DNA of 39,268 nucleotides, taken from NCBI GenBank assembly GCA_017436865.1, contig JAFSCH010000016.1, forward strand, positions 1 to 39,268, written 5' to 3'. A program made the translations under genes and the position numbers. The notes under the pieces are model-generated. The model searched no databases. It worked only from the letters and a program-made list of their open reading frames with translations, and was not told where the DNA came from. This DNA comes from Lachnospiraceae bacterium (GTDB lineage Bacteria; Bacillota; Clostridia; Lachnospirales; Lachnospiraceae). Within the stretch, counting starts at the first letter, position 1. Every line of letters begins with the position of its first letter. Positions 2,445 through 38,582 of this stretch are shown here, one piece after another.

Positions 2445-2445
2445 G
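2415..2445. other. attL of element 3
   Basis: CATGT (2415-2419) is followed by the element arm AGGGTTATTTCTAGG (2431-2445). That arm is an imperfect inverted copy (12 of 15) of CCTAGAATTATCCTT at the right end. Both arms lie equally far (29.5 bp) from the dinucleotide CA at the start of the 5-bp repeat, so CA is my guess for the crossover dinucleotide. Confidence 0.75.
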
Positions 2446-2450
2446 AAAGT

Positions 2451-4286
<1,836 letters not shown>

Positions 4287-5372: not shown

Positions 5373-5412
5373 CTGATTATCCTTTCTAACATCAGTACTG
5401 TTGCATAACAAG

Positions 5413-18894: not shown

Positions 18895-19070
18895 CTGTTC
18901 TAGGGTATTTTTTATAATATGTTTCAACTATAAAGGATGAAAAAAATGCAATAAATTGGGTAGTATATTTTTGAATCAAGTACATTTTATGTTTTCTGTC
19001 AAGATTGTTCTTGATAGAAGGAAGAGTATATCCAAGACACTATTCTAAAATGAAAAAAAGAGGCGACAAA

Positions 19071-21710: not shown

Positions 21711-21728
21711 TGATACCTCTATGATACC
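21711..21728. repeat. TGATACC arm-type repeats, left end of element 2
   Basis: Two TGATACC copies (21711-21717, 21722-21728), 11 bp apart. The 12-mer ATGATACCTGAA (21721-21732) is exactly repeated at 38269-38280 near the right end. Probably integrase arm-binding sites. Confidence 0.5.
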
Positions 21729-22925: not shown

Positions 22926-24038
22926 ATGGCTGCATACAAGGACGAGGAAAGAGGCACATGGTATGTCTCTTTCCACTACAATGACTGGACGGGTAAGAAT
23001 AAAAGAAAGCTGAAACGAGGCTTTAAAACCCGTAAGGAAGCGCTGGAGTGGGAGCAGAAGTTCCGGCTCCAGCAGGCTAACAGTCTGGATATGGATTTTG
23101 GGTCTTTCTATAAGATTTATGAGGATGATTTAAAACCGAAGCTGAAGCTTAACACATGGAAGACCAAGAACACCATATTTCAGAACAGAATCCTGCCATA
23201 TTTTAAGGATAAGAAGATGAATGAAATCAGTCCTGCTGACATTATTAAGTGGCAGAATGCTTTGATGAAACTGAAAAACCCTGATGGAAATAAGTTTAAG
23301 CCTACTTATCTGAAAACCATTCAGGCAGAGCTTTCGGCAATGTTTAACCACGCAGTAAGATTTTATAATCTTTCCGATAATCCCGTTAAAAAGGCAGGCA
23401 CCATCGGAAAGGGTAAATCCGATGAAATGGAGTTCTGGACGGAGGAGGAATATCTGAAGTTTATTGAACAGGTAAAGGATAAATCCGTTTCCTATTATGC
23501 ATTTCAGGTGTTGTACTGGTGCGGTTTAAGAAGTGGGGAACTGCTTGCGCTGACTGCTGCGGACATTGATGTGGAGGCTAAGGTACTTCATATTACAAAA
23601 TCTTATCAGAGAATTGACGGTGAGGATGTTATTACAGACCAAAAGACACCAAAGAGCAAGAGGGATATTGTGATGCCGGATTTTCTTGCAGAGGAACTTA
23701 GGGATTATATTAACAGTCTCTACGGATTTACAAGGAATAACAGAATATTTCTCATTACCAAATCTTATCTGCATAAGGAAATGACAAGAGGTGCGAAAAA
23801 GGCAGGAGTGAAGCGTATTACCATTCACGGACTTCGTCACTCGCACATTTCTTATCTGATTAACAGAGGGTTCTCGGCAGTTGCCATCGGTAACAGGGTA
23901 GGGCATGAGAGCCAGAGTATCACATTTCATTATGCCCACATGTTTCCGACGGAGCAACAGCAGATGGCAGATGTACTTAACCGTGAATTTTGTGAGAGAA
24001 CCGGTATTGCAGAGAAAGGAGCAGATGATTATGAGTAA
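22926..24038 (+). CDS. int: Tyrosine integrase of element 2
   Basis: A 370-aa intact tyrosine recombinase that should integrate and excise element 2. It has an AP2-like arm-binding domain (GTWYVSFHYNDWTGKNKR, about residues 10-50) and a core-binding helical domain (about 58-160). The catalytic domain has arginine in YWCGLRSGELLAL, HGLRHSH, then VGHES and the nucleophilic tyrosine in SITFHYAHMFP. It is a clear relative of the interrupted element 1 integrase and the best guide to that gene's original form. The stop overlaps the MobC start by 8 nt. GGGAGTGAGG upstream supports the start. Confidence 0.95.
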   Translation: MAAYKDEERGTWYVSFHYNDWTGKNKRKLKRGFKTRKEALEWEQKFRLQQANSLDMDFGSFYKIYEDDLKPKLKLNTWKTKNTIFQNRILPYFKDKKMNEISPADIIKWQNALMKLKNPDGNKFKPTYLKTIQAELSAMFNHAVRFYNLSDNPVKKAGTIGKGKSDEMEFWTEEEYLKFIEQVKDKSVSYYAFQVLYWCGLRSGELLALTAADIDVEAKVLHITKSYQRIDGEDVITDQKTPKSKRDIVMPDFLAEELRDYINSLYGFTRNNRIFLITKSYLHKEMTRGAKKAGVKRITIHGLRHSHISYLINRGFSAVAIGNRVGHESQSITFHYAHMFPTEQQQMADVLNREFCERTGIAEKGADDYE

Positions 24039-24540: not shown

Positions 24541-25512
24541 ATGGAAGAAGAGATAAAGTTAAAGATGATTCAGCTGTCTCAGGTGGAGGCACAGGAAATT
24601 AAATGGCTGTGGTATCCGTTTATACCTTATGGAAAGCTTACGATTATTCAGGGTGATCCGGGAGACGGCAAATCCACATTTATATTAAATATAGCAGCAA
24701 TGCTGTCAAAAGGTATGGGTTTTGATGGTGACATGGTGCAGGGTGAGCCTGTAAATGTTATCTATCAGACAGCAGAGGACGGACTTGCGGATACGGTTAA
24801 GCCAAGACTGGAGTCAGCAGGAGCTGACTGTACCAGAATATCCATTATAGATGAGAGTGAAAAGTCGGTATCCATGACTGATGACAGACTGGAGCAGGCG
24901 ATTATAAAGGAAAATGCAAAGCTTTTAATATTGGACCCCATACAGGCTTATCTTGGTGGCGGTACGGATATGAACAGGGCAAATGAAGCCAGGGATATGA
25001 CGAAGAAGCTTGGAAGTATCGCAGAGAGGACAGGCTGTGCCATTGTTCTTATCGGTCATATGAATAAAGGTTCCGGGGCAAAGGCTGCATACAGAGGTAT
25101 GGGTTCCATAGATTTCTTTGCGGTGGCAAGAAGTGTGCTTCTTGTAGGAAGAATTGAAGGTCAGCCCAATATGAGGGCCATCGTACAGATTAAGAATAAC
25201 CTTTCAGCATTCGGGCATCCGAAAGCATTTGAACTGACAGAGGAAGGTTTCAGATGGATTGGAGATTATGAGATTACTGCGGATGAGGTTTTAGGCGGAA
25301 TTGCGCCAAAAGCAAATAAACTTGATATGGCAAGGAAGTTTCTGCAGGAGCTTATGGGTCCAAGGGTCATGATTTCCAGCACGGAGATTCTTGAAATGGC
25401 AGCACAGGAGGGTATTTCAAAAAGAACTCTTGAAACTGCTAAAAAGGAGCTTGGAGTTAAGGCGAAAAGGATTGCCGGTAACTGGTACTGGGATTTGCAT
25501 AAAGATGAATAG
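24541..25512 (+). CDS. repA: RepA-type AAA ATPase (RecA-fold helicase)
   Basis: A 323-aa RecA-fold ATPase of the RepA/AAA_25 group. Walker A is GDPGDGKST (about residues 38-46), Walker B is KLLILDPIQAYLGGG (about 124-138), followed by the IVLIGHMNKGSGAK motif typical of RepA-like helicases. The end is a small winged helix (ISSTEILEMAAQEGISKRTL). Probably a replicative helicase or loader for the excised circle. Its ribosome site CGGAGG lies inside a hairpin that may control expression. Confidence 0.85.
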   Translation: MEEEIKLKMIQLSQVEAQEIKWLWYPFIPYGKLTIIQGDPGDGKSTFILNIAAMLSKGMGFDGDMVQGEPVNVIYQTAEDGLADTVKPRLESAGADCTRISIIDESEKSVSMTDDRLEQAIIKENAKLLILDPIQAYLGGGTDMNRANEARDMTKKLGSIAERTGCAIVLIGHMNKGSGAKAAYRGMGSIDFFAVARSVLLVGRIEGQPNMRAIVQIKNNLSAFGHPKAFELTEEGFRWIGDYEITADEVLGGIAPKANKLDMARKFLQELMGPRVMISSTEILEMAAQEGISKRTLETAKKELGVKAKRIAGNWYWDLHKDE

Positions 25513-26250: not shown

Positions 26251-27570
26251 ATGGGAGCTGCATCATATACGGCACATGTCAGTAATGAAAAAAGTGCCAT
26301 AACAACGAAATCAAAATTAAAGTCAGTCGCCAACCATAATCTCAGAAAATATCGTTCATCTGATTATAGCAAAGATAACATAGTTTTGCTATACGGAACT
26401 GAAAATTTGTATAAGGATGTGCAGGAGGTTTACCATCGGGAGCTTGACGAAGCACTAAAGGTATACAATGAAAAACAGAAGCGTGCCGACAGGCGGATAG
26501 ATGATTATTTTGACCATGTATCGGGGCTTAATCAGGATATGGCGGTAGAGATTATTTTTCAGTGCGGCAATATGGGATTTTGGGAGGAACATGCAGGTAA
26601 GGAAGACAAGATGTATTATGTTTACAATTACACTTTAAAGAATCTGATGACACTTTTGCCCGGGTTTAAGGTGGCAAATGCGGTCATTCATTTTGACGAA
26701 GCCAGTCCCCATATGCATGTGGTAGGTGTGCCTGTTTACGAAGGTTACAAGAAGGGGCTTTCGAGACGGGTAGCCAAAAGAAATGTTTTTACGAAAGAGG
26801 TTTTGTCAGGTGTTCTTCAGGGAAAGCTTCGTGATATTGCGGAAGAATGCTTTTATTTTCATCTGAAAGAGCGGTTTGAGGAAAAACAGGAAGGCAGAAA
26901 TCAGGATTTGACGGTTCTGGAGTATAAGGTGGCAAAGGAAACAGAGAAGCTGGAGTCAGTTGCGTTGGACATTGGCAGAAAAGAGAATACACTTGCCGGA
27001 TTAAGGGATTTGGTGGAGCTTAATCAGGATATGCTTGATGAGACAAAGGAAGAACTGGAAGAAAAACAGCAGGAGGCAGAGAAAACAAGAAAGGTTTTGG
27101 AACAGATAAAAGGATTTGTGGGAATGTTACGGTTATTTGCTCCTACCATAGAGGAATATGCAATTGCTGTAGAAAAAGACGGGCGTATTGATGCCGGAAA
27201 CAGTTTCAGGAGCATTTTGTATGAGCTTGGAAAACTGCTTGAGCGACTTAAAGAACTGATAAAAGAAGGACTGTGCTGGTTTCCAAAACTGATGCGTTGG
27301 AAGACTTCTGTGGGAGAGGTTGCGCCGATATTTAAGGATACAGATAACGGCTACAGCTATTCTGTATGCGGTTATGTGAATGTGGAGACGATGGAACAGT
27401 ATTCCAAAGAGGCTGTGCAGCATGAGATAAAGGCGGATAAGAGAGTTGGTACTGTGGATACCCTTGAAGCTAATATTGAAGCCATGGAAAGGGATTTGGC
27501 TGAGATTATGAGGTGGAAAGGGGAACAGAAAAGGCTGTGGCAGGAGTATGAGGAGTGGAAGAGGAGGTAG
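26251..27570 (+). CDS. Mob_Pre family relaxase (element 2)
   Basis: A 439-aa relaxase. The N-terminus MGAASYTAHVSNEKSA is followed by the family core and the metal site NAVIHFDEASPHMHVVGVPV (about residues 144-163). Residues about 225-290 are coiled coil. The start ATG is preceded by AAAGGAGAAG. It is different in sequence from the element 1 relaxase but has the same organisation. The 225 bp after it hold no gene and lead to the regulator promoter. Confidence 0.88.
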   Translation: MGAASYTAHVSNEKSAITTKSKLKSVANHNLRKYRSSDYSKDNIVLLYGTENLYKDVQEVYHRELDEALKVYNEKQKRADRRIDDYFDHVSGLNQDMAVEIIFQCGNMGFWEEHAGKEDKMYYVYNYTLKNLMTLLPGFKVANAVIHFDEASPHMHVVGVPVYEGYKKGLSRRVAKRNVFTKEVLSGVLQGKLRDIAEECFYFHLKERFEEKQEGRNQDLTVLEYKVAKETEKLESVALDIGRKENTLAGLRDLVELNQDMLDETKEELEEKQQEAEKTRKVLEQIKGFVGMLRLFAPTIEEYAIAVEKDGRIDAGNSFRSILYELGKLLERLKELIKEGLCWFPKLMRWKTSVGEVAPIFKDTDNGYSYSVCGYVNVETMEQYSKEAVQHEIKADKRVGTVDTLEANIEAMERDLAEIMRWKGEQKRLWQEYEEWKRR

Positions 27571-27695: not shown

Positions 27696-27745
27696 TTCGA
27701 GAAATCGAAAATAAAGTTGAAAAATCGAAGGTGTTTTGGTATAAT
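27696..27745 (+). promoter_or_regulatory. Promoter and operator of the cargo operon regulator
   Basis: TTGAAA (27717-27722), a 17-bp spacer and TATAAT (27740-27745) make a near-consensus promoter. TTCGA-GAAA-TCGAA (27696-27709) is a dyad just upstream, and AAATCGAA recurs at 27702 and 27722, 20 bp apart, overlapping the -35. This is a likely operator for the adjacent Cro/CI protein. Confidence 0.65.
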
Positions 27746-27795
27746 GTTATTTGGGAAATTGCGTTGATGAAGTTATATGTGATGGAGGATGTATT

Positions 27796-28011
27796 ATGGC
27801 AGAAGAACGCATTAAAGTTAATTATAAACCATTATGGAAAATGTTAATTGACAGGGATATATCCAAGGGAGATCTGAGAAGAAATACAAAGATTGCTGCA
27901 AGTACGTTTACAAAGATGACAAATAATGAAAATGTGTCTTTAGATGTATTAGTGCGTATATGTGTTGCGTTGGAATGCGGATTGGATGATATCGTAGAGA
28001 TTGAAAAGTAA
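27796..28011 (+). CDS. Cro/CI (XRE) family regulator of the defence-like operon
   Basis: A 71-aa single-domain HTH protein: KPLWKMLIDRDISKGDLRRN, then SVSL-type helix region STFTKMTNNENVSLDVLVRI and ICVALECGLDDIVEI, the standard XRE ending. I chose ATG 27796 because GATGGAGGAT lies upstream. It is 26 nt before the NurA-like gene with no terminator between, so it probably heads and represses the operon, as XRE proteins do for several restriction and defence loci. Confidence 0.85.
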   Translation: MAEERIKVNYKPLWKMLIDRDISKGDLRRNTKIAASTFTKMTNNENVSLDVLVRICVALECGLDDIVEIEK

Positions 28012-28037
28012 AATGATGTTGTGAAGGTGGTGGAAAT

Positions 28038-29201
28038 ATGCCAAAGATAATGGAGATAATAGCAAAGGAAACAAAGGGCACTAGCTATAATACATACAAG
28101 TATAGTTTTGATTCTATTGGATTGCCTTCAATTGTTTATGATGATGATTACTCTAAAATCATGAAGTGGCAAGATTGTGCAGAAACGGTCAAGCATGTTA
28201 AAACGGTTAATTTGAAACCACTTGCTGATATGATAGTTAATGAACCACCTCTGATTAATTATTTTTTGGATGGATCACGACATGTATTTAAAGTAGATGA
28301 TATAGCTTACAATAAACAAGTTTTTCCAGTGGTTGCCGGACAGATTGGAGTAGGCTGTTGTAAACGCATGAATAAAAAGATGTATCCAGAAGCTTTTTAT
28401 AGAGAATTGGTTTTGGCACTGCCTGATAAGAGCCATGCTGATGGTTGGGACGATGCAGCATATTATGCGGCAACTGTAAAAAAATTAAATGATAGTGAAG
28501 AATTGAGAAAATTGAATTTACGTTTTTCGGCAATTATTCCTTATCCAACATCTAAAGCTGGAGCACCGGAAGCTAAATTAGAGGATAGAGGAATAGGTGT
28601 AATTCAGGATTATATGATTGAATCCGAAAAGCGTATGGTAGCTGAATTAGTAAAGAAAAAATTATTGGGACAAGATAGTTATTTATTGAAGGATGGTTCG
28701 TTAGAATATAAAGTTATGAAATCGGGCAGAGAAGATCTACGAACATTGCAAAAAATTAAGCATAATTATAACTGGGTTATAGGTGTTTCAAAATCTTTTA
28801 ATCCGGAAAGTTGCTTGGACCATACGGGAAAACCAAATTCCAAATATATAACGGAGTTACCTGTTTTTCATAGAACATCAGTTGCAAGATTTGAGAATCG
28901 TGAGTTTTTGGGAGATGTACAATTTGGAGTATGGTACATAAGAATAAGAGATAAATCTAGAACACAAACGCCATTTGATGGTGTGGTAAAAGTGGAAAAA
29001 ATTATGATGGATGAAGAACTGGAAAAAGGTATTGACAGTGATGTTATTGACTTGATTTCAGCAAATATTATCAATGAGCGTAATCCTACTTGTTATGGAA
29101 CAGATAAAAGATGGGCAAACCATTTATATCCAGTATTTTTGACAGAATCATTTGTTAAAAGCAAATATATTAGTGCAGAGTTATTTTTACATTTATTCTA
29201 A
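28038..29201 (+). CDS. NurA-like nuclease
   Basis: A 387-aa protein with the NurA signature motifs. The first acidic motif is NYFLDGSRHV (D78), the second YLLKDGSLEYK (D219), then WVIGVSKSF (K252) and a C-terminal HLYPVFLTESFVKS. NurA is an RNase H-like 5'-3' nuclease that works with the HerA translocase in end resection in archaea and in some bacterial defence loci. The next gene is HerA-like after 14 nt, which strongly supports the call. Unknown here: extra sequence before residue 70. GAAGGTGGTGG precedes ATG. Confidence 0.75.
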   Translation: MPKIMEIIAKETKGTSYNTYKYSFDSIGLPSIVYDDDYSKIMKWQDCAETVKHVKTVNLKPLADMIVNEPPLINYFLDGSRHVFKVDDIAYNKQVFPVVAGQIGVGCCKRMNKKMYPEAFYRELVLALPDKSHADGWDDAAYYAATVKKLNDSEELRKLNLRFSAIIPYPTSKAGAPEAKLEDRGIGVIQDYMIESEKRMVAELVKKKLLGQDSYLLKDGSLEYKVMKSGREDLRTLQKIKHNYNWVIGVSKSFNPESCLDHTGKPNSKYITELPVFHRTSVARFENREFLGDVQFGVWYIRIRDKSRTQTPFDGVVKVEKIMMDEELEKGIDSDVIDLISANIINERNPTCYGTDKRWANHLYPVFLTESFVKSKYISAELFLHLF

Positions 29202-29215
29202 GGAGGCAATATACA

Positions 29216-30925
29216 ATGGCAAATAATTTGATTGGAAGAGTTTTAGCAACAGAAAAGAATCCTACAACGATTGATGATTTTACTTTTTGGACTGATCCGG
29301 AATTGATATTGAATCCTTTTGATATTGTAAAAGTTGCCCATGTTAATGATTCGTATTCATATGGGGTAATAGAAGATATTGCACATATAACAGATGCAAG
29401 TAGCTTTTTGACTAATTTTATTTCAAGTGATTTTGGTGACGTAGAAGTTGAGGAACCAACATTGCGTGTTGGAATGAATTATGTAAAAGCTAAGGTAATA
29501 TGTAACGAGAAGAATATTTATATTCCATTGCAAAACAATGCGAAAGTTATGTTAGCTACTGCAGAGGAAATTAATTATGCACTTGGATTAAAGGATATTC
29601 AGAATCCTTTAGTGTGTGGTTATTTAGAAATGTATGAAGGAACAAAGGACTGCGAAAAGGTTACTTTGCCAGTGAACTTAAATTCCAAATTTATTATAGG
29701 GCCGGAAGGAGCTCATTTAAATATATCAGGTATTTCAGGTTTAGCATCAAAGACATCATATGCTATGTTTTTGATGAAGGCAATTCAAGATAGCTACTTA
29801 AGTAAAACTGGGGAAGAGGCAGAAGAAGATAGCGTAGCTTTTGTTATGTTTAATGTAAAAGGAAAGGATTTACTTGCAATAGACCAGCCTAATGATTTTA
29901 TGGACGAAAAGAATCCTGAGAAAGCCAAAAAAGAGACTCTTGAACAATATGAAAAATTGGGATTATCAACAGAGCCATTTAAGAATGTACATTACTATTA
30001 TCCGTATTCTGTTGCTAAGACCAGACATTGGAATACTTATCTGACTGAAGAAGAGGTAAATGATAATATAAGAAAGAAAAAGGCAAAGAAATTCAAATAT
30101 ATTTATAAGTATGACAAAGAAAATTTGGATTTAATGTTTGCTAATATTGATGATTCCAATCAGACAATGGACTCAATCATAACTTATATTATGTCTGGAC
30201 AAGGTGATTTTGGCAGAATCAATGATTGGCAGGAGTTTTTAGAAGCAGTAAAGAAAAAGTGCGAAGCAGGTGCAAGTGGTTCAGATAAAGAAATACCTGT
30301 AGCGAGTTGGAGAAAATTTTATAGAATTATAAATAAAGGAATTACAGATAATAGGATATTTGCACGAGATGTTGTTGAAGAAAATGGTGAGACAAGAATC
30401 GGAGATGCAATGAAGTATATAAAAAAGAATGAGGTGCATGTAATAGATATTGCAAAATTATCTGAGGATAAACAGGCATTTGTGTTTGGCGATGCAATTA
30501 GAACTTTATATGATTTACAGTTGGGACAATACAGTGGCGATGAGGGAGTTAATCCTCCGTCCAGAATAGTTGTATTTATTGATGAGTTAAATAAATATGC
30601 GTCTAAAGAAGTACCTAAAAATTCACCTATATTAAAGCAGGTGTTGGATGTTGCAGAGAGAGGACGTTCTTTAGGTGTTGTATTATTTGCAGCAGAGCAG
30701 TTTAGAAGCGCAATTCATGATAGAGTTACAGGAAACTGTTCTACGCATGCATATGGAAGAACTAATTCCATTGAAGTATCAAAAGGGGATTATAAGAGTG
30801 TTCCTACCGTTTATAAGAATATGATGACTAGATTAAAGCAGGGTGAATATATTATTCAAAATCCTATATTTAGGTCGTTATTGAATATCAAATTCCCAAA
30901 ACCAGTTTATAAGCAATTCAAATGA
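29216..30925 (+). CDS. HerA-like ATPase
   Basis: A 569-aa HerA/FtsK-superfamily ATPase, expected to form a hexamer and move DNA for the NurA-like nuclease. The N-terminal HAS-barrel is at residues 1-95 (LIGRVLATEKNPTTIDDF). The P-loop is unusual, GISGLASKT (172-180), with serine where the usual glycine precedes lysine. Walker B is IVVFIDELNKY (D456, E457). RGRSLGVVLFAAEQ and GNCSTHAYGRTNSIE (506-520) are HerA-type. A charged insert (about 225-300) lies between P-loop and Walker B. AAGGAGG precedes ATG. Confidence 0.85.
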   Translation: MANNLIGRVLATEKNPTTIDDFTFWTDPELILNPFDIVKVAHVNDSYSYGVIEDIAHITDASSFLTNFISSDFGDVEVEEPTLRVGMNYVKAKVICNEKNIYIPLQNNAKVMLATAEEINYALGLKDIQNPLVCGYLEMYEGTKDCEKVTLPVNLNSKFIIGPEGAHLNISGISGLASKTSYAMFLMKAIQDSYLSKTGEEAEEDSVAFVMFNVKGKDLLAIDQPNDFMDEKNPEKAKKETLEQYEKLGLSTEPFKNVHYYYPYSVAKTRHWNTYLTEEEVNDNIRKKKAKKFKYIYKYDKENLDLMFANIDDSNQTMDSIITYIMSGQGDFGRINDWQEFLEAVKKKCEAGASGSDKEIPVASWRKFYRIINKGITDNRIFARDVVEENGETRIGDAMKYIKKNEVHVIDIAKLSEDKQAFVFGDAIRTLYDLQLGQYSGDEGVNPPSRIVVFIDELNKYASKEVPKNSPILKQVLDVAERGRSLGVVLFAAEQFRSAIHDRVTGNCSTHAYGRTNSIEVSKGDYKSVPTVYKNMMTRLKQGEYIIQNPIFRSLLNIKFPKPVYKQFK

Positions 30926-30940
30926 TGAGGTGAAAAACAT

Positions 30941-32497
30941 ATGGCGACTATAGGAAAAAATATATTAGATAATCTGACAACTGGTATGTATTCAGATTCA
31001 AGAGTGATTTATCGAGAGTATATACAGAATGCATGCGACCAAATTGATCTTGCTATTAAAATGGGCATTCTTGGGCAAAGAGAAGGGCAAGTTGATATTT
31101 TTATTGATAATTCCAAGAGATATATTAGTATTCTGGACAATGCGACTGGTGTTAAAGCAGAATCTTTTATTGAGGATTTGGGAGACATAGCTAACAGCAA
31201 CAAGCAAATAGGTCAGAATAAAGGTTTTAGAGGAATTGGACGTTTATGTGGTTTGGCATATTGTAAAACATTAAAGTTCAAGACGAGTTATTTGGGTGAA
31301 GATGTTGCGTCTATAATGACATGTGATGCTAAAAAAATGAGGGAGATGCTTGTAGAAAATAAGAAATATACGATTGATGAAATATGGGAAACAATTGTAG
31401 AGTATGATACTGCTCCGGAAGATGCTGAAAAACATTATTTTGAAGTGGAAATGCTGGAGATTAATCGCGAGAATACAGATTTATTAGATGAAAAGCGTAT
31501 TAAAGAATACTTGAATTTTGTAGCACCTGTACCATATAAAAATACATTTATTTTAAGAAGTAGCATATATGCGCATGCAAGAGAGCTTGGATGTCTAATC
31601 GACGAATATTGCGTTCAGATTAACGGACAGCAGATTTTTAAGGAATATACTACTAAAATTAAGGAGCAAAGCGGTGCTAATCTTAAGAACTATGATGACA
31701 TTTCTAAATTAGAATTTAAAGATTTTTATGATGAGGACGGCAATTTGCTTGCATGGATGTGGTATGGTCTTTCCAGATTTGAAAAATCTATTCCTGTGGT
31801 AAACCAGATGCGTGGATTACGTGTAAGAAGTAGTAATATTCAGATAGGAAATGATGATGTAGTTCAAGGATTATTTAAAGAAAAAAGAGGAAATTACTAT
31901 TTTGTTGGTGAGATTTTTGCGGAAGATGAAAAACTCATTCCTAATTCCCAGAGAGACTATTTTAATGAGAATGAAACTAGGGTAAGGTTTGAAGATGAGC
32001 TGAGGGCATATTTTTATGATGTGCTGCATCGATTATATTATGATGCCAACAGATTGAAAAATGCGTATAAAAAGCAAGAGGAATATGTTTCTAAAGTTGA
32101 TGAGTATAACAAAAAAACAAGTGAAAATGGATTTGTCAACGAAGAAGAAAAACAGAAGCTTAAATTTGCAATAGATAAGGCTGAAAAAGAAGTCGAAGAA
32201 GCTAAGAAACAAATTGATAAGTTTAAAGCGATTGATGAACAATCTCCCATTGCAGAAGTACAAAAGAGCATTGAAAGTAAGTTTGGTGCTGAAAAATTAC
32301 AACGGCAAGTTGATGAAAAAGAAGTTGTAAAGACTGAAGTGACAGATAAAAAGAAGCAGTATATAACTTCGTCTATGTCAAAGCTATCAAAAAGCGAAAG
32401 AAAGCTTGTAAGCAAGTTACTGACTATTATTAATGAAGTGGCTCCTAAAGATGTGGCTGAAAAAATTATAGATAAAATAAAGGAAGAGCTGAGATAA
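30941..32497 (+). CDS. GHKL (Hsp90/MORC-like) ATPase 1
   Basis: A 518-aa protein with a Bergerat-fold ATPase: N-box YREYIQNACDQID (E26, N30, D33), G1 box DNATG (66-70) and G2 box GFRGIGRLCG (95-104). A transducer-like middle domain follows (about 180-360). Residues about 360-440 are strongly coiled coil (KLKFAIDKAEKEVEEAKKQI), then a lysine-rich tail. It shares the G2 form G(F/Y)(R/K)GIGRLxG and the YC that follows with the second GHKL protein at 35201. GHKL ATPases dimerise and clamp on DNA or clients. Gap to herA 15 nt. Confidence 0.85.
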   Translation: MATIGKNILDNLTTGMYSDSRVIYREYIQNACDQIDLAIKMGILGQREGQVDIFIDNSKRYISILDNATGVKAESFIEDLGDIANSNKQIGQNKGFRGIGRLCGLAYCKTLKFKTSYLGEDVASIMTCDAKKMREMLVENKKYTIDEIWETIVEYDTAPEDAEKHYFEVEMLEINRENTDLLDEKRIKEYLNFVAPVPYKNTFILRSSIYAHARELGCLIDEYCVQINGQQIFKEYTTKIKEQSGANLKNYDDISKLEFKDFYDEDGNLLAWMWYGLSRFEKSIPVVNQMRGLRVRSSNIQIGNDDVVQGLFKEKRGNYYFVGEIFAEDEKLIPNSQRDYFNENETRVRFEDELRAYFYDVLHRLYYDANRLKNAYKKQEEYVSKVDEYNKKTSENGFVNEEEKQKLKFAIDKAEKEVEEAKKQIDKFKAIDEQSPIAEVQKSIESKFGAEKLQRQVDEKEVVKTEVTDKKKQYITSSMSKLSKSERKLVSKLLTIINEVAPKDVAEKIIDKIKEELR

Positions 32498-32498
32498 A

Positions 32499-34391
32499 AT
32501 GAACAGAAAAGTATTATTGATAGAACCGAATTATAAAAATAAGTATCCTCCAATGGGACTTATGAAAATTGCGACATATTATCGTATGAAGGGTGACGAT
32601 GTTAGGTTCTATAAAGGTGATATGAAATCTCTTGCTGTTGAACTGATTTGTGAGGATTTGATAGAACACTTGGAAATAGTATATCCGGAAGTTTTTTGGA
32701 AGGAATATTATCCGATATTATTTCAATTTATAAAAATTGGTAGATATTCAATTTTAGAAGAGTACGATATATTTGCTTCAGACGATGTATTAGATGTTAT
32801 TAAGGAATATAGAAAAAGGTATCGTGATAAGGAATACTTTACAAAGCCAAGGTTTGATAAAGTAGGAATAACTACTTTGTTTACATTTTATTGGGATATT
32901 ACTATTGATACAATAAATTTTGCTAAGCAGTTATGCAAAAAAACAGAAGATGTTATGGTTGGTGGAATAATGTCTACATTATTGCCTGACGAGGTTTATT
33001 CAGCGACAGGAATACATCCGTTTGAGGGCTTATTGGATAAGCCAGGAGCAATAGACCCAGGTGATACATTGATAATAGACCAGTTACCATTAGATTATTC
33101 AATTCTTGACGAGATTGATTATATATATCCAGCAAATAATGCGTATTTTGCATATATGACAAGAGGTTGTGTTAATAAATGTAAATTCTGTGCAGTTCCT
33201 AGATTGGAGCCGGAATATTGCGATTACATTAGCTTGAAGAAACAGATAGAAATTACGAATGAACGCTTTGGAACACAGCGAGATTTATTGTTGTTGGACA
33301 ATAATGTATTGGCATCAAAATGTTATGAAGATATTATTGAAGAAATTAAGGAGTGTGGTTTTGGTCAAGGGGCTACTTATAGTGCGCCTAATGAGTATGA
33401 TATAACAATTAAAAATTTGAAGGAGTCATACAATGATAGGGCGTATATAAGAAAAGCAGTAAAAATTTATATGGATATTATTGACAGACTTAAAGATGAT
33501 GAAGAAAAAACAAAGCTTTATATGAAGTTTGAAGAAAATCACTGTTTGTACCACTATACAGCAACTAAAGAAGCAATTTTGGAATTGGATGAGATTGTGC
33601 GTCCTTTATATGAAAAAACACACAAACCATCTAAGAAGAAAAGAATAGTGGATTTTAATCAGGGTATTGATTCAAGACTTATTACTCCTGAAAATATGAG
33701 TAAACTGGCAGAAGTCAATATATATCCGTTAAGAATCGCATTTGATCATTGGAAATTGCATGATATTTACGAAAAGTCAGTAAAGACAGCTGTGAATAGT
33801 GGTATTCGTAATTTATCCAATTATTTATTATATAATTTTGAAGATAAACCGGAGGAATTATATTATCGATTGGAGATGAATGTAAGATTATGTGAGGAAT
33901 TGGATGCAAGTATATATTCATTCCCAATGAAATATCATCCTATAAATGATCCAGATTTTTTCATGAACAGAGATTATATAGGAAAATATTGGAATAGAAA
34001 ATTCATCAGAGCCGTACAGGCGGTATTAAATTCTACTAAAGGCAAAATAGGTAGAGGAAAAGAATTTTTTGAAGAGGCATTTGGCAGTAATATAGATGAA
34101 TTTCATAAAATATTATGGATGCCAGAGACGTTCATTATTTATCGCCGACAGTATGATGCAAAGTTAAGGGAGAAATTGGCTGACAAATATAAAAATCATT
34201 CAGAAAAAGATTGTGATTTAGCAAATGAATGGTGGGACAAATTTAATGGTTTGCCATCTGAAAAGAAAGAGCGTGCAAAGGAGATTATTGCACTTAATAA
34301 GTTTAAAGATGGTGAATATCAATGTGATGATGCGGAAATAGAGGATGTTCTTTGGTATTATAAAACAACAAGGAATGATGCAGAAAAATAG
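32499..34391 (+). CDS. Radical SAM protein with B12-binding-like N-terminus
   Basis: A 630-aa radical SAM enzyme. The start, KVLLIEPNYKN...PPMGLMKIATYY, is like the Rossmann domain of B12-dependent radical SAM proteins, but the DxHxxG cobalamin motif is absent. The cluster motif is MTRGCVNKCKFCAVPRLEP with C224, C228 and C231. Large insertions lengthen the barrel (about 290-400). Substrate unknown: in this setting it could modify DNA, RNA, a nucleotide or a protein. It starts 1 nt after the GHKL stop, so translation is coupled. A radical SAM enzyme beside HerA, NurA and GHKL ATPases is unusual. Confidence 0.8.
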   Translation: MNRKVLLIEPNYKNKYPPMGLMKIATYYRMKGDDVRFYKGDMKSLAVELICEDLIEHLEIVYPEVFWKEYYPILFQFIKIGRYSILEEYDIFASDDVLDVIKEYRKRYRDKEYFTKPRFDKVGITTLFTFYWDITIDTINFAKQLCKKTEDVMVGGIMSTLLPDEVYSATGIHPFEGLLDKPGAIDPGDTLIIDQLPLDYSILDEIDYIYPANNAYFAYMTRGCVNKCKFCAVPRLEPEYCDYISLKKQIEITNERFGTQRDLLLLDNNVLASKCYEDIIEEIKECGFGQGATYSAPNEYDITIKNLKESYNDRAYIRKAVKIYMDIIDRLKDDEEKTKLYMKFEENHCLYHYTATKEAILELDEIVRPLYEKTHKPSKKKRIVDFNQGIDSRLITPENMSKLAEVNIYPLRIAFDHWKLHDIYEKSVKTAVNSGIRNLSNYLLYNFEDKPEELYYRLEMNVRLCEELDASIYSFPMKYHPINDPDFFMNRDYIGKYWNRKFIRAVQAVLNSTKGKIGRGKEFFEEAFGSNIDEFHKILWMPETFIIYRRQYDAKLREKLADKYKNHSEKDCDLANEWWDKFNGLPSEKKERAKEIIALNKFKDGEYQCDDAEIEDVLWYYKTTRNDAEK

Positions 34392-34409
34392 ACAAAAGAG
34401 GTGTGAGAA

Positions 34410-35189
34410 ATGGCATATGTGAATCCAGAACCTATCTTGGAGGATGTTATTACAGAAATTAATGAAGAAGCAGTATCTGATTATACACGAATGGATGAGG
34501 TGTACTTTGCATTTATTGATGTATTGGGATTTAAAAAGACATTCGATGATATTCGTATATCTAAGGAAGAGGACATGGCAGATAAGTATAGAGATGTATT
34601 TAATTACTATTTTGAATTAATGGGTGAAGCCAAATTTATGGAGAGAGGTAAAAGTACGGGATGCTATGCGGGTCAAACTTCAGATAGTTTATATTTTTAC
34701 ACAGATAGGTCGGACTTTCTTGTAGAATTTATGAAGATTTTTTCACATTTCAATTTGTATGCAATGTCTAAGGATGTATTTTTTAGAGGTGGTATAGCAA
34801 AAGGAAATTTGTATAAAAAAGAAAAGTATCAGTTTTATGGTAATAGCGTTATATATGCTTATTTGATGGAAAGCGTAATTTCAAAGTATCCGATTATAGT
34901 AGTTGATGAGAAAACGAATGAAGATATGAAAAAAATATCTGAGTACGAATCAATGATTGCTTGCGAAAAGGGGCGTTATTACATAAAACCATTCAAATTT
35001 TTGTATGAAGATGTTGCTTTAGATATTGTGAATCCGATCAAGCGAGAAATAGATGTTGATAAAATAAAACACAATATAGAAAATAATCGCAGTTTATTTG
35101 AATATGATGCAAAGAATTATGAGAAATATGTGTTTTTGAAAAAACAATTAGTTGCTTGTGATAATAACAATAACTCTGGGATAGAATAG
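34410..35189 (+). CDS. Class III nucleotide-cyclase-like protein
   Basis: A 259-aa protein whose core resembles class III cyclases: VYFAFIDVLGFKKTF (D37, matching the F-x-D-I-x-G-F metal motif), SDSLYFY (D92, second metal site), FFRGGIAKGNLY (125-136) and QFYGNSVIYAYLMES (141-155, like the YxGxxVNxAxRLE box), then YPIIVVDE. No transmembrane helix or sensor domain is visible. Cyclases act as alarm-signal makers in Pycsar defence, but catalytic competence and substrate cannot be told here. It may instead be a cyclase-fold scaffold. Gap 18 nt to the radical SAM gene; GAGGTG precedes ATG. Confidence 0.55.
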   Translation: MAYVNPEPILEDVITEINEEAVSDYTRMDEVYFAFIDVLGFKKTFDDIRISKEEDMADKYRDVFNYYFELMGEAKFMERGKSTGCYAGQTSDSLYFYTDRSDFLVEFMKIFSHFNLYAMSKDVFFRGGIAKGNLYKKEKYQFYGNSVIYAYLMESVISKYPIIVVDEKTNEDMKKISEYESMIACEKGRYYIKPFKFLYEDVALDIVNPIKREIDVDKIKHNIENNRSLFEYDAKNYEKYVFLKKQLVACDNNNNSGIE

Positions 35190-35200
35190 GAGGGAATAGA

Positions 35201-36652
35201 ATGTCTGAAAATAAAGTTGGAGCAGGAATATTGAATATAATAACAGAGTCTTTATATGACAATCCTATTGTGGTTTTTCGCGAGTATGTGCAAAATTCAA
35301 TGGACTCTATCTTAAAGAGTGGAGAAAATGCAGAGGAGTATGCTATTAAAATATGGAATTCAAAAAATGATTTATTTTTTCTTGATAATGGAATGGGGAT
35401 CGAAAAAGACGAATTTGAAAATGAAATGATAAAAATAGGGGCTTCATCAAAGAAGAAACGGAAAAATCTTGGATATAAAGGTATTGGTAGACTGTCGGGA
35501 GTTCCATATTGTAAGAAACTTGTTTTTATAAATATATCGGATTATTCGAGTAATAAAGTGCAAATCTATACTATAGATAGCGAATTATATGATAGGATTA
35601 AAAATGATGAAAATTATTCAGAGTTGACTTTTACTGAATTAATGAAAAAAATAGGAACTTATCAAGATGATGTGGATATAAGGAGTTTGGCACATATATA
35701 TTCTGAAGTGGAAAAATATGAGAGTCTATTAGAAATTACTAATTCAGGATTTATAGTTTTCATGCAGGAAATATCAATGGTCTTGGGGAATACCATAACA
35801 GATGACGGTTTTTTTCAAGAATTACAATGGCTATTACCAGTAGATTTTAGTGATGAATTATATCAATCTGACAAGAAGGAATTATTTGAAGATTTAACAG
35901 TTGAGTCGATTGAGGATGCTGTGCCTGCTAGACATTGCAATATATATTATAACGATGAACAAATCTTTAGACCAATAAAGAAAGAAATGCTTCGTGATTA
36001 TGTGTGCAAAAGTAATTTTAAGTATGCTGTGGGGTTTCATACATTTAAAGGGGATAAAATTGTAATCGATAAGAAAAATAGTTTTTCAGGCATAAGAATA
36101 TATATAGATAATATGTTATTGTGTGATGAGAACGAATTGCTACAAAGTTTGGATCACTATGGTTTGCTTGCGCATACATCAAATGGACAGTTACAATCTG
36201 TAAGAGGAATTGGTGCAATGATATATATTACGGATAAAGTTAATATATCAGCTAATGCAAGAAGAACTTTTATAGAGGTAACAGACAATGATTCTTTTGA
36301 ATTTTTAAGAATGCTTGCGGAATTTGTAAATAACATATATGACACGAGGTATGCTTTATCTAATTATGCTTCTGCAAGGAGTAAATATCAGGCTGGAGCT
36401 GAACAGTTGCAGCAGTTAAGGGAAAATGCGTTATACAATTTAAAAAAATTAGCGAAAGAGAATGTAGAACTAACAGCAGAAAGCGAAGAAACGGATATTG
36501 ATTTTGAAGCAATGAGTATAACAGATAAAAAGAAGCTAATAAAGAAAGCTATTTCAAATCAATTAGATAATAAACTAAAAGAATATATAAAGAGTTTAGA
36601 TAAATATGATTTGGAAAATGCATACAAGGATTTTTTAGATTGGATTAAATAG
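35201..36652 (+). CDS. GHKL (Hsp90/MORC-like) ATPase 2
   Basis: A 483-aa Bergerat-fold ATPase: N-box FREYVQNSMDSI (E28, N32, D35), G1 box DNGMG (62-66), G2 box GYKGIGRLSG (91-100) followed by VPYCKK. The middle region (about 190-340) and the SANARRTFIE segment look like an S5/transducer fold. The C-terminus is helical and acidic then basic. It is a diverged paralogue of the protein at 30941, in the same operon and separated from it by the radical SAM and cyclase-like genes; the two may heterodimerise. GGAGGG precedes ATG. Confidence 0.85.
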   Translation: MSENKVGAGILNIITESLYDNPIVVFREYVQNSMDSILKSGENAEEYAIKIWNSKNDLFFLDNGMGIEKDEFENEMIKIGASSKKKRKNLGYKGIGRLSGVPYCKKLVFINISDYSSNKVQIYTIDSELYDRIKNDENYSELTFTELMKKIGTYQDDVDIRSLAHIYSEVEKYESLLEITNSGFIVFMQEISMVLGNTITDDGFFQELQWLLPVDFSDELYQSDKKELFEDLTVESIEDAVPARHCNIYYNDEQIFRPIKKEMLRDYVCKSNFKYAVGFHTFKGDKIVIDKKNSFSGIRIYIDNMLLCDENELLQSLDHYGLLAHTSNGQLQSVRGIGAMIYITDKVNISANARRTFIEVTDNDSFEFLRMLAEFVNNIYDTRYALSNYASARSKYQAGAEQLQQLRENALYNLKKLAKENVELTAESEETDIDFEAMSITDKKKLIKKAISNQLDNKLKEYIKSLDKYDLENAYKDFLDWIK

Positions 36653-36694
36653 TCTATTGATAATAGGCTGTGTTTAGGAAGTGGGTGATGCATA

Positions 36695-38179
36695 ATGACA
36701 AAACAAGAAATGATAAATCTTATAAAAACACTTATTAAAACAGGTGAAAAAATTGATGTGGAGTTTAAGGAATCAAAGAATGATTTGAATAAAGATGTAT
36801 ATGAGTCGGTTTGTTCTTTTAATAATAGAGATGGTGGGTATATTATACTTGGTGTTGTAGATAAAACAAAAGAAATTTGCGGTGTGAACCCGGATAAAGT
36901 TGATAAGATGAAAAAGGATTTTACAACATCTATAAACAATGCAAATAAAATTAATCCACCCATATATTTGACACCGGAGGATGTAACTATAGATGATAAG
37001 GTTGTAATATTTATCAGAGTGCCAGAAGGAACACAGCTCCGCCGATTGAATGGTCGAATCTATGACAGGACATATGAAGGAGACATAGATATTACGGATA
37101 ATGCGGAACTGGTATACAAAATGTACGCCAGGAAGCAAAGCACCTATTTTGTAAATAAAGTTTATCCGAAGCTGGGACTGGAATTTTTGGATTTTGATGT
37201 TATCCGTCGAGCGAAGAAAATGGCAATGTCAAGAATGGATAATCACCCATGGTCGGACATGAGTGAAGAAGAAATCCTTAGAAGTTCCGGCTTGATATTG
37301 GCAGATCCGGAAACAGGTAAAGAAGGTATTACTTTGGCTGCTATATTGCTGTTTGGCAAAGACAGCACGATTATGTCCGTTCTGCCACAATATAAGACCG
37401 ATGCTATCTATCGTGTAAAAAATATGGATCGCTATGATGACAGAGAAGTGATTATCACAAACCTTGTAGATAGCTTTAGAAGATTGATGGACTTTGGTAA
37501 AAAGCATCTGAATGATGTGTTTGTGACAGAAGGTGATCAGAGCATCAGTGCCAGAGATAAAATTCTTAGAGAAGTGGTATCAAATATTCTGGCACACAGA
37601 GATTATGCAAATGCTTATACAGCTCAGTTTGTAATTGAAAGAGACAAGCTGTATACGAAAAACAGTAATCTTCCACATGGACACGGTGAATTGGAGCTTA
37701 ATAAATTTGAACCTTTTCCGAAAAATCCACCGATTTCAAAGGTGTTTAGAGAGATTGGATATGCAGATGAATTGGGTTCTGGTATGAGGAATACGAATAA
37801 GTATACCAAGCTGTATTCAGGTGGAGTGCCGAAGTTTGTTGAGGAGAATGTGTTTCAAATTGAAATTCCGATTAGTAATGTGCCGGAATTGAAGGTTGGT
37901 CCAACGGCGGCAGAAGTTATATTAGAAAAACAGAAAGTGAACAATGAAACAAGTTTTGAAACAAGTTTGAAACAAGTTTTGAAACAAAAAGAGTACGAAA
38001 AAATTGAAGGTGTAATAAAAAAACTAATAAGTGAAAAAGAAGTTACAATTCAGGAGGTTATGAAAATAACTGGAAAATCAAGAACTACTGCATGGAGATA
38101 TATGCAGAAATTAGTAGAGTGTGGAGTGGTAATGGCAGATGGACGAACAAACAATATTGTTTATCGTTTGGTAGATTGA
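36695..38179 (+). CDS. AlbA_2 (Schlafen-type) and GHKL-like protein with variable linker and winged helix (element 2)
   Basis: A 494-aa paralogue of the protein at 19071. AlbA_2 domain at the start (KIDVEFKESKN, then VCSFNNRDGGYIILGVVDK); central HATPase_c_4-like region (REVVSNILAHRDYANAYTAQ, ELGSGMRNTNKY); then a linker at about 417-431 coded by four GAAACAAGTTT(T) units; then a winged helix (TIQEVMKITGKSRTTAWRYM). It follows GHKL 2 by 42 nt with TTAGGAAGTGGG upstream, so it is probably the last gene of the operon. Codon use shifts from about 37030 toward higher GC, suggesting a composite origin. Confidence 0.78.
   Translation: MTKQEMINLIKTLIKTGEKIDVEFKESKNDLNKDVYESVCSFNNRDGGYIILGVVDKTKEICGVNPDKVDKMKKDFTTSINNANKINPPIYLTPEDVTIDDKVVIFIRVPEGTQLRRLNGRIYDRTYEGDIDITDNAELVYKMYARKQSTYFVNKVYPKLGLEFLDFDVIRRAKKMAMSRMDNHPWSDMSEEEILRSSGLILADPETGKEGITLAAILLFGKDSTIMSVLPQYKTDAIYRVKNMDRYDDREVIITNLVDSFRRLMDFGKKHLNDVFVTEGDQSISARDKILREVVSNILAHRDYANAYTAQFVIERDKLYTKNSNLPHGHGELELNKFEPFPKNPPISKVFREIGYADELGSGMRNTNKYTKLYSGGVPKFVEENVFQIEIPISNVPELKVGPTAAEVILEKQKVNNETSFETSLKQVLKQKEYEKIEGVIKKLISEKEVTIQEVMKITGKSRTTAWRYMQKLVECGVVMADGRTNNIVYRLVD
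37946..37990 (+). repeat. In-gene tandem repeat with 11- and 12-nt units
   Basis: GAAACAAGTTTT (37946-37957), GAAACAAGTTT (37958-37968), GAAACAAGTTTT (37969-37980), then GAAACAAAA. Because one unit is 11 nt, the reading frame moves across the repeat (ETSF, ETSL, then KQVLKQ). Gain or loss of an 11-nt unit would put the winged helix out of frame. Confidence 0.85.
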
Positions 38180-38245: not shown

Positions 38246-38276
38246 TGATACCCATTCGTGATACCCGAATGATACC
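38246..38276. repeat. TGATACC arm-type repeats, right end of element 2
   Basis: Three TGATACC copies start at 38246, 38259 and 38270. They match the pair at 21711 and 21722, including the shared ATGATACCTGAA. They lie about 165 bp from the candidate right core, mirroring the left end. The surrounding 38180-38440 holds no gene; an AAATAG/CTATTT stem lies near 38310-38332. Confidence 0.5.
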
Positions 38277-38440
38277 TGAAATTTTGAAAACTAAAAATAA
38301 TTAAGAGAAATAGACGAAAAGATGCTATTTCTGAAAGCAAAAACCTACCAAAACAGCTGAAATAAGTTGGTTAGTAGGGAGTTTGTTGAGTAGGAGTAAA
38401 ACGCTGGAAATGCCCGAAAACACTGGATTTACGGGAAGCG

Positions 38441-38451: not shown

Positions 38452-38500
38452 TAGTGTTATCAATTTGTTATCAGAATGATTTGAATATGTAGATAGGAAT

Positions 38501-38520
38501 GCCGCAGAGGAATCTGCGGC
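38501..38520. terminator. Terminator between element 2 and the chromosomal GNAT gene
   Basis: GCCGCAGA (38501-38508) pairs perfectly with TCTGCGGC (38513-38520), GGAA loop, followed by ATTTATTTT on the plus strand. It could also stop leftward transcription from the GNAT gene. Confidence 0.75.
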
Positions 38521-38582
38521 ATTTATTTTCTGCAAAAGTCAAGAAAAACTGAAATGTTCCTATGTTTTAAGAATTCGATTTG

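Follow-up and report, generated by a model that had tools for sequence, protein, structure and literature searches.

A conserved NurA-HerA-GHKL-radical SAM core in the cargo of a mobilizable element from a Lachnospiraceae bacterium: a putative defence against foreign DNA

In a stretch of 39,268 nucleotides from a Lachnospiraceae bacterium (contig JAFSCH010000016.1; hereafter the window), four adjacent genes encoding a NurA-like nuclease, the DNA motor HerA, a GHKL ATPase (GHKL-A) and a radical SAM protein (rSAM) form a conserved core that recurs across many bacteria and, judged from sequence, probably represents a hitherto undescribed means of defending against foreign DNA. The conserved unit is this core and not the eight-gene set in which it resides, while a gene for a cyclase-like protein and a second GHKL gene (GHKL-B) constitute a second module that is separable from the core. 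Our preferred explanation, to which we assign a probability of about 0.4, is that a mobilizable element carries both modules, with one rSAM protein common to the two, as machinery directed against foreign DNA.

The cargo operon and its carrier

Eight open reading frames, all co-directional on the forward strand, fill positions 27796-38179 with intergenic gaps of 26, 14, 15, 1, 18, 11 and 42 bp, so that the operon described in the initial annotation is borne out by the list of reading frames. A sigma-70-like promoter with an extended -10 element (27717..27745, forward strand; TTGAAA-17-TATAAT, TG before the -10, 11/12 matches) lies 50 bp upstream of the first gene. It is the top-scoring of 65 such sites, but the number of sites does not exceed that in shuffled sequence (61.3, sd 6.7). 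The first gene (27796..28011, forward) encodes an XRE/HTH_26 regulator (Pfam HTH_26, E 6e-18), for which a TTG start at 27751 is permitted in addition to the ATG at 27796. A terminator-like hairpin with a 12-bp stem is located at 38497..38524 (forward). HTH_26, HATPase_c_3 (in both GHKL proteins) and SLFN_AlbA_2 are the Pfam families matched above cut-off.

With regard to the NurA-HerA pair, the HerA part of the earlier assignment is firm and the NurA part weaker. HerA (29216..30925, forward) is firmly identified by profile through its homology to HerA of a solved NurA-HerA complex (PDB 7f6d, E 4e-116); its match in the Pfam scan was at chance level, and K179 and D456-E457 are invariant in 11/11 aligned sequences. 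For the putative NurA nuclease (28038..29201, forward), NurA of the same structure is the top match in the profile search at E 0.21, and Pfam matches were absent from all nine family members scanned. Database support for the name is thus weak; the NurA reading is supported by 26.5% identity (E 8e-22) to a Marinitoga virus 1 protein that is annotated as 'single-stranded exonuclease associated with Rad50/Mre11 complex' and adjoins an annotated HerA, and by the motifs D78-G79, D219-G220 and H362-L-Y-P, present in 70-72 of 72 relatives.

The presence of two paralogous Hsp90/MORC-like ATPases was confirmed. GHKL-A (30941..32497, forward) and GHKL-B (35201..36652, forward) both match HATPase_c_3 (E 2e-7 and 3e-12, respectively) and share 34% identity in their N-terminal parts (GHKL-B residues 6-155). 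The N box, G1 and G2 motifs characteristic of GHKL ATPases are intact and retained in 71-72 of 72 GHKL-A relatives. Five genomes with weak GHKL-B matches lie outside the loci compared.

The rSAM protein (32499..34391, forward) is predicted to be a radical SAM enzyme of the B12-binding type. This assignment of fold and cofactor draws on Pfam matches below cut-off (B12-binding, E 2e-3; Radical_SAM, E 0.04, 14.5 versus 29.5 bits required), on phrog_9298 (E 2e-40) and on the cluster motif CX3CX2C, which occurs in 71/72 relatives, its residues C224, C228 and C231 being invariant in 36/36; the earlier identification is therefore upheld by motif and PHROG match but not by Pfam Radical_SAM.

Class III nucleotidyl cyclases bind metal via two conserved aspartates and possess a transition-state Asn and Arg. 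In the class III cyclase-like protein (34410..35189, forward; Guanylate_cyc E 9e-4, below cut-off), D37 and D92 are invariant in 11/11 relatives, and the family profile retrieves seven PDB matches at E <= 1, every one an adenylate cyclase (E 0.011-0.077), but the usual Asn and Arg positions are replaced in a profile alignment to 4p2m. The last gene (36695..38179, forward) encodes an AlbA_2/Schlafen-type protein (SLFN_AlbA_2, E 1e-17) that is probably accessory.

Genes for a tyrosine integrase (22926..24038; named by eye, 52.5% identical to the reading frame at 1497), an AAA_25 ATPase (24541..25512, E 1e-30) and a Mob_Pre relaxase (26251..27570, E 4e-15), all on the forward strand, lie upstream of the operon. 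The view that the operon is cargo of a mobilizable element agrees with the relaxase preceding it, and in our explanation the carrier would be an integrative mobilizable element. Its ends are candidates: a TGATACC-type repeat at 21711..21732 matches 38259-38280 at 86%, and further TGATACC repeats occupy 38246..38281 (all forward). A clear empty site was found in none of 20 genomes of the genus, own genome included.

Conservation and distribution of the core

From a genome scan with rSAM that gave at least 448 relatives, the 80 top-ranked loci were retained, a set in which the window's own type is over-represented. NurA, HerA, GHKL-A and rSAM occur together in 62/80 of these loci; among those with at least 5 kb of upstream DNA the proportion was 57/63. 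Pairwise distances of the core proteins correlate at r 0.91-0.94, the best of 200 permutations reaching 0.28, which indicates co-inheritance; the correlation covers 72 of 93 offered loci with at least two duplicates and partly reflects shared descent of the hosts.

The remaining genes accompany cores rarely. Per 80 loci, cyclase-like relatives were found with cores in five cases, XRE relatives in nine and AlbA_2 relatives in four (HMM or BLAST); an XRE relative directly precedes NurA in eight of these 80 top-ranked relatives (BLAST), and the complete eight-gene set was seen in no other locus examined. The proposal that the eight genes form one system was rejected on these grounds, and XRE and AlbA_2 are regarded as optional additions. 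Homologues lying mostly apart had been named as evidence against the set; this does not apply to four of its eight genes, as the core homologues stay together, while the cyclase-like protein, GHKL-B, XRE and AlbA_2 are separable or optional. A GHKL gene follows the cyclase-like gene in the window and in loci L023, L036, L040, L053, L058, L081, L148 and L226. Five of the 80 top-ranked rSAM loci (at least 448 in the scan) contain a cyclase-like gene plus a second GHKL gene, and in L053, L226 and L148 the pair occurs with rSAM and without NurA-HerA.

Occurrence is sparse. In an even sample of the phylum (398 genomes including the window's own), rSAM was present in 7 of the 397 others, three times in the four-gene cassette and four times beside PbeC/PbeA-type genes; strong HerA relatives (E below 1e-50) occur in eight genomes besides the own one among 299 of the family. 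The whole core is encoded on three of the 80 IMG/VR viral contigs kept (L146, L147, L157), GHKL is absent among the reading frames displayed for 73 of these 80 viral rSAM loci, and a search of viral contigs with a single HerA sequence yielded zero matches. Other arrangements comprise rSAM alone (L086, L096), a GHKL-rSAM pair without NurA-HerA (L108, L110) and a locus with only a divergent GHKL on the opposite strand (L106).

Neighbourhoods vary widely, the commonest family among 522 clustered neighbour reading frames reaching nine loci. The 141 of 285 candidate neighbours scanned after removal of cluster duplicates and under a residue cap mix defence genes (AbiEii accounts for 2/141), mobile genes and many housekeeping genes; owing to these mixed classes and to counts that have no random-gene PADLOC baseline, neighbour content is not counted as proof. 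DndE-like, Csf3-like, HsdM/HsdS-like, ParA-like, ClpB-like, integrase and serine-recombinase genes were named by eye or position. Judged by the length of the contig and the position on it, several loci represent one genome twice (e.g., L027=L033, L028=L051, L029=L050, L236=L070, L237=L102). Identical rSAM proteins were found in the MAG pairs L046/L047 and L043/L044, and errors in binning are possible since L046 and L047 belong to different phyla.

Relation to known defence and DNA-modification systems

In agreement with the initial annotation, neither PADLOC nor the literature searched provided a described system that fits the whole set. Excerpts of PMC11291478 present DUF4297-HerA as an established antiphage complex with dsDNA-cleaving activity. 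SIR2-HerA and DUF4297-HerA resemble the window in having a HerA motor beside a partner enzyme, and a nuclease-motor assembly would be expected here as well; the partner in the window, however, is NurA-like, and GHKL and rSAM are added. The window's HerA is nearest to 7f6d and not to 8xau (E 5e-11). Membership in these systems was rejected, as HerA scores 15 bits against NCBIfam HerA_antiphage (cut-off 800; PADLOC HerA, E 9e-4) and neither a SIR2 nor a DUF4297 partner was detected by Pfam or NCBIfam among the eight proteins. PADLOC Aga_SIR2-PNTD1-PNTD2 matches the AlbA_2 protein at E 5e-7 in mid-profile (353-479 of 876). With Deinococcus and archaeal HerA-NurA the window shares the HerA subfamily and, tentatively, NurA-type motifs, whereas its operon additionally contains GHKL and rSAM and is patchy and mobile; Mre11/Rad50 are absent among the eight genes. 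Archaeal HerA-NurA degrades dsDNA, and an antiviral role has been suggested (excerpts of PMC12977600).

MADS membership was likewise rejected because, of mad1-mad8, only mad8 (HerA, E 3e-10) and mad1 (E 0.005, on the HTH of the AlbA_2 protein) were matched. GHKL-B resembles the ATPase region of Tiamat TmtA (E 2e-4) over 73 residues of a 1370-residue profile. The cyclase-like protein has cyclase-type homology and both metal aspartates in common with class III cyclases including Pycsar PycC, from which it differs in the replaced Asn and Arg and in its lack of a PADLOC match. Weak PADLOC matches concern ZorA and MkoC on GHKL-A (E 0.03-0.05), PDC-S70 on HerA (E 0.02) and, weakly or partially, Csa3, CARF, CasR, SoFic, PDC-S50 and SIR2-Ago on the AlbA_2 protein (E 5e-7 to 0.01).

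Other DNA-modification defence loci also harbour relatives of this rSAM protein; rSAM may therefore introduce a novel type of mark into DNA, and we read it as a probable nucleic-acid-modifying enzyme. In four genomes they occur at loci of the PbeABCD/CxC-DndE type, which are linked to phosphorothioation or methylation, adjoining PbeC (E 2e-188) and PbeA (E 4e-218); L259 additionally encodes a DndB/DpdB-like protein (Pfam, E 1e-10; PADLOC, E 4e-18), and GHKL is absent from two of the four loci. Viewed from the PbeC side, rSAM sits at the locus in 4/22 genomes with a PbeC-like gene, and a fifth contains a weak rSAM match, versus 7/397 overall. Five rSAM (one weak) and four PP-loop proteins with both in 0/22 might suggest mutual exclusion at PbeC-like loci, but about 0.9 co-occurrences are expected by chance and the pattern proves nothing. 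DndC was unmatched in the four rSAM-PbeC genomes, and no control genome exceeded the cut-off either. According to excerpts of PMC6459918, 165 PbeAC homologues have no modification component within 10 kb.

A DGQHR (DndB/DpdB-like) gene, of the kind found in Dpd and Dnd systems, forms operons with rSAM and GHKL on 5/5 alphaproteobacterial plasmids examined, of 12 found; the radical SAM protein replaces an enzyme there by position only. Further rSAM relatives recur beside annotated ParB-N proteins and in type IV CRISPR-like operons (L150, L151). In our reading, GHKL and rSAM make up a putative portable module that is combined with various effectors, in the window with the HerA-NurA nuclease motor. 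Phosphorothioation was rejected for the window because DndC (control genomes gave only sub-cut-off matches), DndB (2/14 controls exceed the cut-off) and a PbeC/DndD-type gene (none at E <= 1e-10) were all unmatched in its genome.

Mode of action and competing explanations

In the explanation that we prefer, rSAM together with a DNA-loading or -scanning GHKL would modify or inspect nucleic acid, either placing a mark on self-DNA or processing foreign DNA. A GHKL clamp on DNA without or with the mark would license HerA, and the hexameric translocase would feed DNA to NurA for destruction. The cyclase-like protein and GHKL-B might provide a second output through nucleotide signalling or sensing that uses the same rSAM, and XRE might repress the operon. 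In the model of the initial annotation, likewise an inference, GHKL would recognise DNA, rSAM or the cyclase would mark or signal, and HerA-NurA would degrade; its rSAM step gains weight from the relatives in PbeA/PbeC and DndB/DpdB-like loci. If this holds true, the bacterial HerA-NurA pair would obtain a defined system, Hsp90-like ATPases and radical SAM chemistry would be added to restriction-type immunity, and some PbeAC loci would have a candidate for their missing modification enzyme. More tentatively, rSAM, possibly a cobalamin-type enzyme making a novel DNA mark in a DndC/CysH-like position, could found a class of nucleic-acid-modification defence in which a GHKL-rSAM marking-and-licensing module plugs into NurA-HerA, PbeA/PbeC, DndB/DpdB, PIN or cyclase-like effectors, with relatives in type IV CRISPR-like operons.

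B12-binding-type radical SAM enzymes act on varied substrates, and that of rSAM could also be a protein, a small molecule or RNA. Alternatively, the core might be an abortive system built on HerA and a nuclease, with rSAM synthesizing a small molecule or acting on a partner protein or peptide and with DNA left unmarked, a reading that we consider unlikely. DUF4297-HerA works by abortive infection (excerpts of PMC11291478), and a peptide effector is the proposed target of the radical SAM protein of vWA-MoxR conflict systems (excerpts of PMC7159879); the recurrence of rSAM relatives with the DNA-tied DndB/DpdB-like, PbeA/PbeC and annotated ParB-N proteins argues against it. Rather improbable is a repair or recombination cassette in the style of Deinococcus and archaeal HerA-NurA, processing ends for element or host: it would suit the proximity to 7f6d and the more distant HerA relatives, which adjoin SbcD/SMC-type genes on plasmids, but neither the sparse occurrence of rSAM and HerA nor the rSAM that the core has in common with PbeA/PbeC loci. 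A tool of the mobile element itself, serving exclusion of rivals or transfer and not host defence, appears slightly more doubtful still; the operon sits behind a relaxase, and cellular and mobile systems have captured HerA/FtsK motors from each other (excerpts of PMC10853773), yet flanks match the window's integrase or relaxase in only 7/80 loci (BLAST with those two queries).

Chance assembly of unrelated cargo genes, to which the uniqueness of the full set might point, is very improbable overall and refuted for the core by its recurrence, although it could still partly account for the presence of XRE and AlbA_2. The AlbA_2 protein is 39% identical to an AlbA_2 protein encoded behind the neighbouring cargo.

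Operon layout and conserved core

Eight co-directional ORFs occupy positions 27796-38179 on the forward strand and encode an XRE regulator, a NurA-like protein, HerA, GHKL-A, a B12-binding-type radical SAM protein (rSAM), a cyclase-like protein, GHKL-B and an AlbA_2 protein. They are separated by 26, 14, 15, 1, 18, 11 and 42 bp, preceded by a near-consensus promoter (27717-27745) and followed by a terminator-like hairpin (38497-38524). The operon of the initial annotation is real and unusual, but its borders were drawn too wide, as the conserved unit comprises four genes, NurA-HerA-GHKL-A-rSAM, and not eight. The G+C content of XRE through GHKL-B (0.30-0.33; AlbA_2, 0.356) is low compared with that of the carrier integrase (22926-24038), AAA_25 ATPase (24541-25512) and Mob_Pre relaxase (26251-27570), at 0.42-0.44, which fits a cargo of another origin.

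Pfam supports HTH_26, HATPase_c_3 in both GHKL proteins and SLFN_AlbA_2, while matches for the cyclase-like and radical SAM proteins fall under the cut-off and NurA and HerA of the operon are missed, as are all nine NurA-family members. A profile built from 11 HerA relatives matched HerA of PDB entry 7f6d, the Deinococcus NurA-HerA complex, at E 4e-116, far more strongly than the second-best HerA, 8xau (E 5e-11), an antiphage HerA. The top PDB match of the NurA profile is NurA of the same 7f6d entry, albeit weak (E 0.21). All four core proteins retain their catalytic-type motif patterns in 70 to 72 of the 72 relatives. In the cyclase-like family both metal aspartates are kept (11/11 members), and adenylate cyclases account for all seven PDB matches of the family profile at E <= 1 (E 0.011-0.077). 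The usual cyclase Asn and Arg are substituted, so its members are putative cyclases.

HerA was matched in 15 of 299 family genomes, own genome included, at E <= 1e-3, and in eight besides it at E < 1e-50. NurA-HerA-GHKL-rSAM is present in six of these eight, split over two contigs in G054; in G163 the contig ends within HerA, and G225 carries NurA and a truncated HerA without GHKL or rSAM within the 12.4 kb examined. A scan of genome contigs with an rSAM alignment gave at least 448 relatives, and among the best 80 all four genes occur in 62, as consecutive same-strand ORFs in 56 (median spacing 11, 11.5 and -2.5 bp when the starts of the longest ORFs are used). Where at least 5 kb lie upstream, the core is complete in 57 of 63 loci, the exceptions being L053, L086, L096, L106, L108 and L110. 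Pairwise distance correlations among the core proteins, covering 72 of 93 loci with some duplicates included, reach 0.906-0.936 against a permuted maximum of 0.281. GHKL-B matched 13 of 391 genomes besides our own, and among the eight examined seven contain NurA, HerA, GHKL and rSAM, including L231 with its 447-aa ORF ahead of rSAM, and one contains cyclase-GHKL-B-rSAM. Titles of full-core loci, many of them MAGs, name Bacillota, Synergistota, Deferribacterota, Chloroflexota, Planctomycetota, Cloacimonadota and Gastranaerophilales; on a cut-off Bacteroidota contig (L066) GHKL-rSAM stands alone. That the four genes form one functional unit we regard as virtually certain.

In the Synergistota contigs L086 and L096 rSAM stands alone, preceded by a ClpB-like gene (by eye), and nests among full-core relatives on the rSAM tree; these contigs may have kept rSAM while losing the rest of the core. 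Locus L231 (175-12450) features a composite run of PLD-helicase, NurA, HerA, GHKL, a 447-aa ORF lacking a Pfam match, rSAM and a second GHKL.

In agreement with the initial annotation, the set matches no named defence system: PADLOC assigned none of its systems to the eight proteins, and no description was found in the open-access literature searched, so that the cassette appears undescribed there. The closest paper found mentions radical SAM twice, where DndC is discussed, and gives methylases as alternative partners for a DndDE core (PMC10853773); another describes a Pseudomonas defence hotspot flanked by a radical SAM protein (PMC10250203).

Other gene neighbourhoods of the radical SAM protein

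More striking than the cassette is the wider role of rSAM. Its profile (E <= 1e-10) matches seven genomes besides our own among 398 drawn evenly from the phylum. Three (L255, L256, L260) carry NurA-HerA-GHKL-rSAM; in the other four (L257, L258, L259, L261) rSAM adjoins an ABC-type ATPase of 657-690 aa, with a DndE-like ORF of 145-159 aa, named by position (no PADLOC match in three tested, no Pfam match in two tested), and a helicase-type ORF of ~700 aa nearby. PADLOC identified the ATPase as PbeC in all three cases tested (E 2e-188, 1e-174 and 3e-178; DndD scores lower) and the L259 helicase as PbeA (E 4e-218); L259 additionally encodes a DndB/DpdB-like protein. DndC (TIGR03183) had no match in the four rSAM-PbeC genomes, a single hit below cut-off falling on a different contig, in genome G679; no control genome exceeded the cut-off either, so the profile may lack sensitivity here. 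A protein search identified a PbeC-like gene, in some cases perhaps DndD, in 22 of the 398 genomes; rSAM occurs at the locus in four, with a weak fifth (L345, 55 bits), and a PP-loop motif protein in four others.

The cyclase-like gene adjoins the core in the window, L023, L036, L040 and L058, on the opposite strand and broken into two ORFs in the last, and adjoins rSAM in L081, where the contig starts inside rSAM. Because cyclase-like, GHKL and rSAM genes also stand together without NurA or HerA in the stretches examined of L053, L226 (contig end 272 bp from rSAM) and L148, the window operon looks like two systems united around one rSAM. Distant cyclase-like proteins lie amid genes resembling type I restriction-modification (hsdM/hsdS by eye) in L227 (5202-6035) and L230 (5647-6465). 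The family also includes 33 viral-contig loci (L262-L294), many near-identical; in two of 14 viewed (L263, L284) a ParA-like ATPase (by eye) directly precedes the gene.

Twelve alphaproteobacterial plasmid records match rSAM. All five examined show the order DGQHR-rSAM-GHKL, four with PIN-GHKL nearby and four with SNF2/ParB-type genes; the DndB/DpdB assignment for the plasmids refers to L140. Past the core, L236 (9706-11292) and L237 (10279-12001) carry large ORFs with weak similarity to the ParB-N protein of rhizobia (E 2e-5 and 1e-6, respectively). The ORF of L237 also has an AAA_15 region. These ORFs tie the NurA-HerA context to the DGQHR one. Among 80 viral rSAM loci analysed out of 408, three have the whole core, four more GHKL and one a DGQHR-like gene, with none of these in the viewed stretches of the remainder. 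In L150 and L151 rSAM comes after genes with matches to type IV CRISPR csf1 (E 7e-11 each; controls 0/14) and csf2 (E 2e-9 and 8e-9; controls 3/14), all below cut-off; type IV-B has a CysH-like gene for which a comparison with DndC has been drawn (PMC8175902). There the rSAM relatives (L150, 9959-11362; L151, 9905-11386) are followed by a ~410-aa ORF, B12/radical-SAM-like by eye.

Context labels interleave on the rSAM tree (124 rows), with 31 changes against a possible minimum of 5 and a shuffled mean of 46.5, in a tree that drew long-branch warnings and where partial contigs raise the count. GHKL lies within two genes of rSAM in 75/76 NurA-HerA, 6/6 cyclase, 5/6 DGQHR and 2/4 PbeC loci, and by definition in 0/44 loci without such a neighbour, in a tally with duplicates partly removed.

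In Marinitoga camini virus 1 (L006, 7878-11704) a short rSAM faces HerA and a NurA-like gene in convergent orientation, and the 16.8 kb examined contain no match to GHKL. On plasmids L003, L004 and L007 more distant HerA relatives lie beside exonuclease/SMC-type or large ORFs, and two of these plasmids have an annotated ImmA/IrrE peptidase.

Proposed mode of action

The nuclease-motor DUF4297-HerA has an established antiphage function (PMC11291478), and archaeal HerA-NurA reportedly degrades dsDNA, with a suggested antiviral role (PMC12977600). Protection by haloarchaeal DndCDEA-PbeABCD requires a DNA mark, and 165 PbeAC homologues have no modification component nearby (PMC6459918). Combining these findings, we propose that rSAM would modify nucleic acid, GHKL would act as loader and licenser, and HerA-NurA would destroy whatever fails the check. 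A defence role is probable and nucleic acid is a slightly favoured target of rSAM; the whole chain is tentative, with a probability of about 0.4.

Neighbouring elements

In the neighbouring element (17200-20453) a slot of the same type holds another cargo: downstream of an ORF 32% similar to the relaxase over 158 residues lie genes for an AIPR abortive-infection protein (E 1e-37) and for an AlbA_2 protein that shares 39% identity with the operon's own. At 1497-4274 one element may be inserted into another: an integrase-like ORF (315 aa; 52.5% identity with the integrase of 370 aa at 22926) ends beside an opposite-strand ORF resembling a large serine recombinase (names by eye). A small radical-SAM-like ORF (4542-5411, by eye) lies beside a RhuM-family protein (5413-6438; Pfam E 1e-103).
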